DNA of 32,768 bases from NCBI GenBank assembly GCA_030601605.1, contig JAUVTI010000004.1, forward strand, positions 1 through 32,768, written 5' to 3'. Positions 31,885-32,073 of this stretch are shown piece by piece. A program made the position numbers and the translations under genes. Source of the DNA: Gemmatimonadales bacterium. Lineage in GTDB: Bacteria; Gemmatimonadota; Gemmatimonadetes; Gemmatimonadales; GWC2-71-9. Numbering within the stretch: the stretch's first letter is position 1; every line of letters begins with the position of its first letter. The notes under the pieces are model-generated. The model made no database searches, had not been told where the DNA came from, and saw nothing but the letters and a program-made list of their open reading frames with translations.

Positions 31885-31943
31885 ATCGGGTTGCTCCGGA
31901 GGGTCTCCGAAACTCGCCTCAGTCTCGACGCCCCTGTCGTACG

Positions 31944-31971
31944 TTTCCCGCTTCCCGCCTCCCGCTTCCCG
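31944..31971. repeat. Four tandem 7-bp units (TTTCCCG CTTCCCG CCTCCCG CTTCCCG) flanked by GTCGTAC direct repeats
   Basis: Direct reading. GTCGTAC occurs at 31936-31942 and 31972-31978, and a further C-run tract continues to 32002. Confidence 0.9.
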
Positions 31972-32017
31972 GTCGTACCCTTCCCCCTTCCCCTCTCTTC
32001 CCGAAACCGCCCGCCGG

Positions 32018-32046
32018 TTGACCCCGTAGGGAGCCTCAGCTAGACT
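32018..32046 (+). promoter_or_regulatory. Sigma70-like promoter of the TetR-family gene
   Basis: TTGACC (32018-32023), exactly 17 nt spacer, TAGACT (32041-32046). Confidence 0.7.
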
Positions 32047-32073
32047 TAACGCCGTTAACTTAACAGCGTTAAC
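32046..32073. promoter_or_regulatory. Doubled palindromic operator, probably the TetR-family autoregulation site
   Basis: TTAACGCCGTTAAC followed directly by TTAACAGCGTTAAC. Each is an inverted repeat TTAAC-N3-GTTAA, starting at the last base of the -10 box. Confidence 0.75.

Follow-up and report, generated by a model that had tools for sequence, protein, structure and literature searches.

A 32,768-nucleotide stretch of DNA (the window), whose uncultured host is placed in Gemmatimonadota by named relatives, carries at its end a TetR-family gene preceded by two abutting palindromes. We consider it likely that the TetR protein acts through this array to repress the TetR-TolC-MFP-RND efflux operon, that transcription comes most likely from an ECF-type promoter, and that a ligand releases the repressor; we infer the binding, repression, induction, cooperativity, and identity of the sigma factor in this reading. 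The features concerned are as follows.

32003..32007, + strand: GAAAC, -35-like half of an ECF-sigma-type promoter, from the conservation of GAAAC-N16/17-CGTA
32018..32023, + strand: TTGACC, sigma70 -35-like hexamer inside the ECF spacer, present in the window
32025..32028, + strand: CGTA, -10-like half of the ECF-type promoter with an N17 spacer; same motif before other conserved gene sets in genomes G000, G002, G007, and G046
32032..32045, + strand: putative place of a lost third unit, here AGCCTCAGCTAGAC; a unit is present at +7 in L115 and L116
32041..32046, + strand: TAGACT, sigma70 -10-like hexamer, TAGRYT-like in the closest relatives
32046..32059, + strand: operator unit 1, TTAACGCCGTTAAC, 21 bp from the C of CGTA; register +21 also in L113, L115, and L116
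32060..32073, + strand: operator unit 2, TTAACAGCGTTAAC, 35 bp from the C of CGTA; register +35 also in L113, L115, and L116
32134..32766, + strand: TetR-family repressor gene, first of the efflux operon, with its stop codon on contig C71

Two abutting palindromes precede an efflux operon

The initial annotation had described two back-to-back palindromes of the form TTAAC-N3-GTTAA, and both units were confirmed, head to tail, with unit 1 a 13-bp palindrome plus 1. They had been placed immediately after TTGACC-N17-TAGACT; all of these sequences are present, but TAGACT and the first palindrome share one T, the last of the hexamer, and so overlap by one base. The 27-bp block TTAAC-N3-GTTAA-N-TTAAC-N3-GTTAA is symmetric as a whole, so that its description as a direct repeat of palindromes has one equivalent alternative. 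A search of the window with TTAACNNCGTTAAC, allowing up to two mismatches, found the two units only (4 strand-matches), whereas shuffled windows gave a mean of 0.15 matches and 0 of 100 shuffles reached 4. In the 2.09-Mb genome TTAACNNNGTTAA occurs at three places, two of which are the window units, and the reversed control gave 0.

The product of the adjacent gene matches Pfam TetR_N (PF00440, 5.6e-16) and TetR_C_33 (PF13305, 2.1e-11), and its AlphaFold model (pLDDT 84) is all helical, with 3on2, DarR, and FadR as the best folds. The regulator therefore combines the TetR_N helix-turn-helix with the all-helical C-terminal domain that define the TetR family. None of the NCBIfam equivalog cut-offs compared was reached (AcrR, 22.7 against 271 bits; MtrR, 33.5 against 280; tetracycline TetR, 31.9 against 265). 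Contig C71 starts with a 141-bp exact overlap with the end of the window's contig, so that the operon can be read beyond it. There, tetR is followed by closely spaced, co-directional genes for a TolC-type outer-membrane protein, an RND periplasmic adaptor (MFP; TIGR01730, 1e-59), and an RND permease (NF033617, 1.1e-173), and the regulator thus shares an operon with MFP and RND genes, as a local repressor of RND efflux should. The autorepression layout proposed in the initial annotation is supported by the comparisons below, but we read the regulated unit as the whole TetR-TolC-MFP-RND operon and not tetR alone.

On the upstream side of the array, 250 bp separate tetR from the end of an ABC permease gene. 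In relatives L037-L046 the space between these genes holds an alpha/beta-hydrolase gene, which in L041, L043, L045, and L046 points away from tetR, with the array between the two; the window has no such gene.

The array is conserved with the adjacent regulator

Orthologs of the regulator in Gemmatimonadota and Fidelibacterota (43-75% identity) keep the operator sites. A distinct set of orthologs (47-75% identity) could be separated from weaker TetR homologs among 151 relatives, and the array lies upstream of every member of this set; the 14-spaced pair occurs in 14/14 upstream regions, against a shuffle mean of 0.003. In a search of named genomes, abutting 14-bp units were found in 14 of the 16 orthologs above 42% identity, and two Fidelibacterota orthologs have a single unit only. 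A lack of palindromes upstream of orthologs had been named beforehand as the observation that would speak against an operator, and the opposite was found. Abutting 14-bp-spaced units were found upstream of 0 of 64 weaker TetR homologs; these homologs have single palindromes of related sequence before their own genes (CTAAC, TTGAC, and ATAAC half-sites), as would be expected if the helix-turn-helix and its site evolve together. TolC follows tetR in all orthologs with enough sequence, with MFP and RND next wherever the contig reaches. Conservation among relatives is partly shared descent. Taken as a comparison of sequences, the case that the array is the operator of the operon's own TetR-type repressor is well supported.

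We noted two further features of the orthologs. Three of them (L120, L125, and L126) come from bins labelled Neomarinimicrobiota (Fidelibacterota), by horizontal transfer or mis-binning. At L051:3381-7409 (G025:C84), ~3.6 kb of inserted DNA breaks the tetR ortholog after about residue 43, a natural loss of the repressor in which the operator array and pump genes remain.

The pair in the window appears to be a reduced form of a longer array. Three units in 14-bp steps, each with at least 8/10 bases matching, are present in nine orthologs (L115, L116, L117, L118, L121, L122, L123, G187, and G241), the last two from another family of the class, and G025 has a tenth such array with a weaker first unit. 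Counted from the CGTA box, units start at +7, +21, and +35 in L115 and L116 and at +21 and +35 in the window. In a tree of the TetR proteins, whose deep forks are weakly supported, the closest relatives of the window all have two units and three-unit arrays are found in other lineages; the simplest reading is therefore that the window's clade lost its first unit. The palindrome pair of the initial annotation is present as described, but probably as what remains of a three-unit arrangement. One variant array, in L114, has steps of 14 and 19.

The array is essentially confined to one operon

The site had been judged specific enough for a regulon search. Across 394 genomes of the class and 102 of the family, array matches fall almost exclusively at the efflux operon. 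They occur in 13/102 family genomes (reversed control, 0), and all but one lie at the efflux operon, including the copy with the broken tetR; the exception precedes a PadR gene. A large regulon beyond the operon was rejected, the other array match being this one PadR-gene site with 3 mismatches (G057). Judged by these searches, the regulon would essentially be one operon. The upstream ABC transporter pair was rejected as a target, the window search having given no operator site nearby. Single sites occur upstream of a MarR gene (G007:C18) and, in one case, likely inside a gene (G023, L090).

A single TTAACnnnGTTAA also stands in front of gltA (citrate synthase) in G000, G002, and G007, and with a mismatch in G001; the gltA gene of G021 has no TTAACnnnGTTAA site. 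The sites beside gltA are at L089:4572-4584 (G000:C225), L097, L094, and L107, in G000 between gltA and a divergent gene, and four relatives share the flanking sequence GTATCTTTAAC...AACTGTC. The gltA site is possibly a second target or the site of another regulator.

These distributions bear on whether the neighboring TetR protein is the one that reads the array. A different regulator, a paralogous TetR or a global factor, might bind it while the adjacent TetR acts elsewhere, and the gltA sites in three genomes do show that a half-site can occur at another locus. We find this quite improbable, as the array tracks the ortholog group, is absent with other TetR homologs, and has the efflux operon as essentially its sole locus per genome. 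Even less credit, practically none, goes to the idea that the palindromes are a chance or non-regulatory presence in a promoter: the shortness of each unit is the only point for it, and the shuffle tests, the rarity in the genome, the constant 14-bp period, and the conservation, which rules chance palindromes out, all stand against it.

A probable ECF-type promoter lies upstream of the array

The promoter of the initial annotation, TTGACC-N17-TAGACT, is present in the window but is not the element conserved in the clade, which is GAAAC-N17-CGTA. GAAAC-N16/17-CGTA lies directly upstream of the array in 11/20 orthologs, including the whole clade of the window, where shuffles expect 0.06/20, and the bases between the two boxes vary in these 11. 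A GAAAC-CGTA match in L088 falls on the downstream side of the array and is left out of this count. In nine of the 20 orthologs no ECF-like motif sits beside the array, and promoter type therefore differs between lineages. Upstream of the promoter, at 31940-32003, is a pyrimidine-rich TTCCCGCTTCCCGCCTCCCGCTTCCCG tract, and L124 has a similar CCGTCCTTCCGTCCTT tract in the same place.

The same TetR array could instead act on transcription from the sigma70 promoter, with GAAAC...CGTA unused or serving as another factor's site. The hexamer pair has 9/12 consensus matches, and no other sigma70-like pair occurs between 31880 and 32200 (shuffle mean, 0.0). Of the 11 clade members with GAAAC and CGTA, 5 retain TTGAC, and TTGAC is also found near the first unit in L087, L088, and L122, which have no ECF-like motif beside the array. 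Against this, TTGAC is replaced in L114, L116, L118, L119, L121, and L051, and GAAAC and CGTA are retained there. We therefore think sigma70-driven transcription unlikely, though less so than binding by a different regulator, and prefer the ECF-type promoter.

Bacillus sigmaW-type ECF promoters have the form TGAAAC-N16-CGTA. The GAAAC and CGTA boxes at the window are like these, and the spacing agrees within one base, the window spacer being one base longer; we infer the sigma factor at the window promoter from sequence. In four related genomes (G000, G002, G007, and G046), the GAAAC/CGTA motif gave 83 matches versus 15 in a reversed control. It precedes M48 peptidase genes in three genomes, the gene that immediately follows an ECF sigma gene in three, an outer-membrane efflux protein (TolC-like) in two, PAS-Fis proteins in two, and also unnamed membrane proteins. 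Because the motif recurs before matching genes across genomes, it probably represents a genuine class of ECF promoters there, to which the efflux operon probably belongs.

A similar element, AAC-N17-CGTA, lies upstream of the ECF sigma gene itself in G000 and G002, and the sigma-adjacent promoters have N16 after GAAAC, versus N17 at the window promoter. At L196:904-2051 (G000:C9), L191, and L192, the ECF sigma gene has behind it a conserved gene of unknown family that may encode its anti-sigma factor, and TGAAAC-N16-CGTA begins at the stop codon of the sigma gene. This locus is likely the core of an envelope-stress regulon with the M48 protease and TolC-like genes.

Proposed mechanism and comparison with known systems

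We suggest that one repressor dimer binds each 14-bp unit and that transcription starts most likely from GAAAC-N17-CGTA (32003-32028), just upstream of the array. The dimers would then occupy roughly +10 to +38 of the ECF transcript, whose start we put near 32035; with the sigma70 option they would lie over the start site, and in either case the operon as a whole would be kept from being transcribed. Dimers bound over the start site would thus silence tetR and the co-directional TolC-MFP-RND genes until a ligand, probably a pump substrate, frees them. Since an ECF-type promoter is combined with a TetR array, full expression would depend both on a stress sigma factor being active and on the repressor being lost. 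A 14-bp step is ~4/3 of a turn, so that neighboring dimers would be rotated by about 120 degrees, and cooperativity is possible. More tentatively, three dimers may form a three-fold screw over 42 bp (four turns) behind the ECF promoter, so that an RND pump in Gemmatimonadota would be controlled by a stress-AND-ligand gate; we hold this as a possibility that is rather doubtful in its entirety.

Systems of the AcrR, TtgR, SmeT, and MexZ type likewise have a TetR gene beside an RND pump, an operator over the promoter, and presumed release by substrate. Here, in contrast, tetR itself opens the pump operon, in the same direction, and the operator is built from 13-bp palindromes, two or three in number, that abut at a 14-bp step. 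In P. aeruginosa, NfxB is the local repressor of mexCD-oprJ. That RND operon is also under an envelope-stress ECF sigma factor, AlgU (PMC11200565), a precedent for the dual control proposed here, whereas the present case is in a different phylum, has a different array, and is linked to a sigma factor by sequence only.

QacR, CprB, and DarR, the last among the nearest solved folds to the window TetR, resemble our prediction in placing more than one TetR-family dimer on a control site (PMC6018408, PMC10636190). In those systems the palindromes overlap, or two dimers read one site of 20-28 bp (PMC6018408, PMC10636190), whereas here the palindromes are complete, abutting, and up to three in a row. 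A 3-bp gap between half-sites is that of one-dimer TetR-type operators and not of the overlapping QacR type (PMC6018408), which favors a one-dimer operator for each unit. The units also abut without overlap, and so depart from a QacR-type dimer-of-dimers operator with its overlapping palindromes and longer half-site gap. A literature search with the literal operator sequences gave no relevant paper, one for triple or tandem TetR operators gave no result, and the geometry of two or three abutting units at a constant 14-bp step was not found in the literature searched.

For an efflux operon from a phylum that is little studied and mostly uncultured, the array and its promoter provide a candidate code of operator and promoter sequences, and would link the pump to a candidate envelope-stress sigma regulon.
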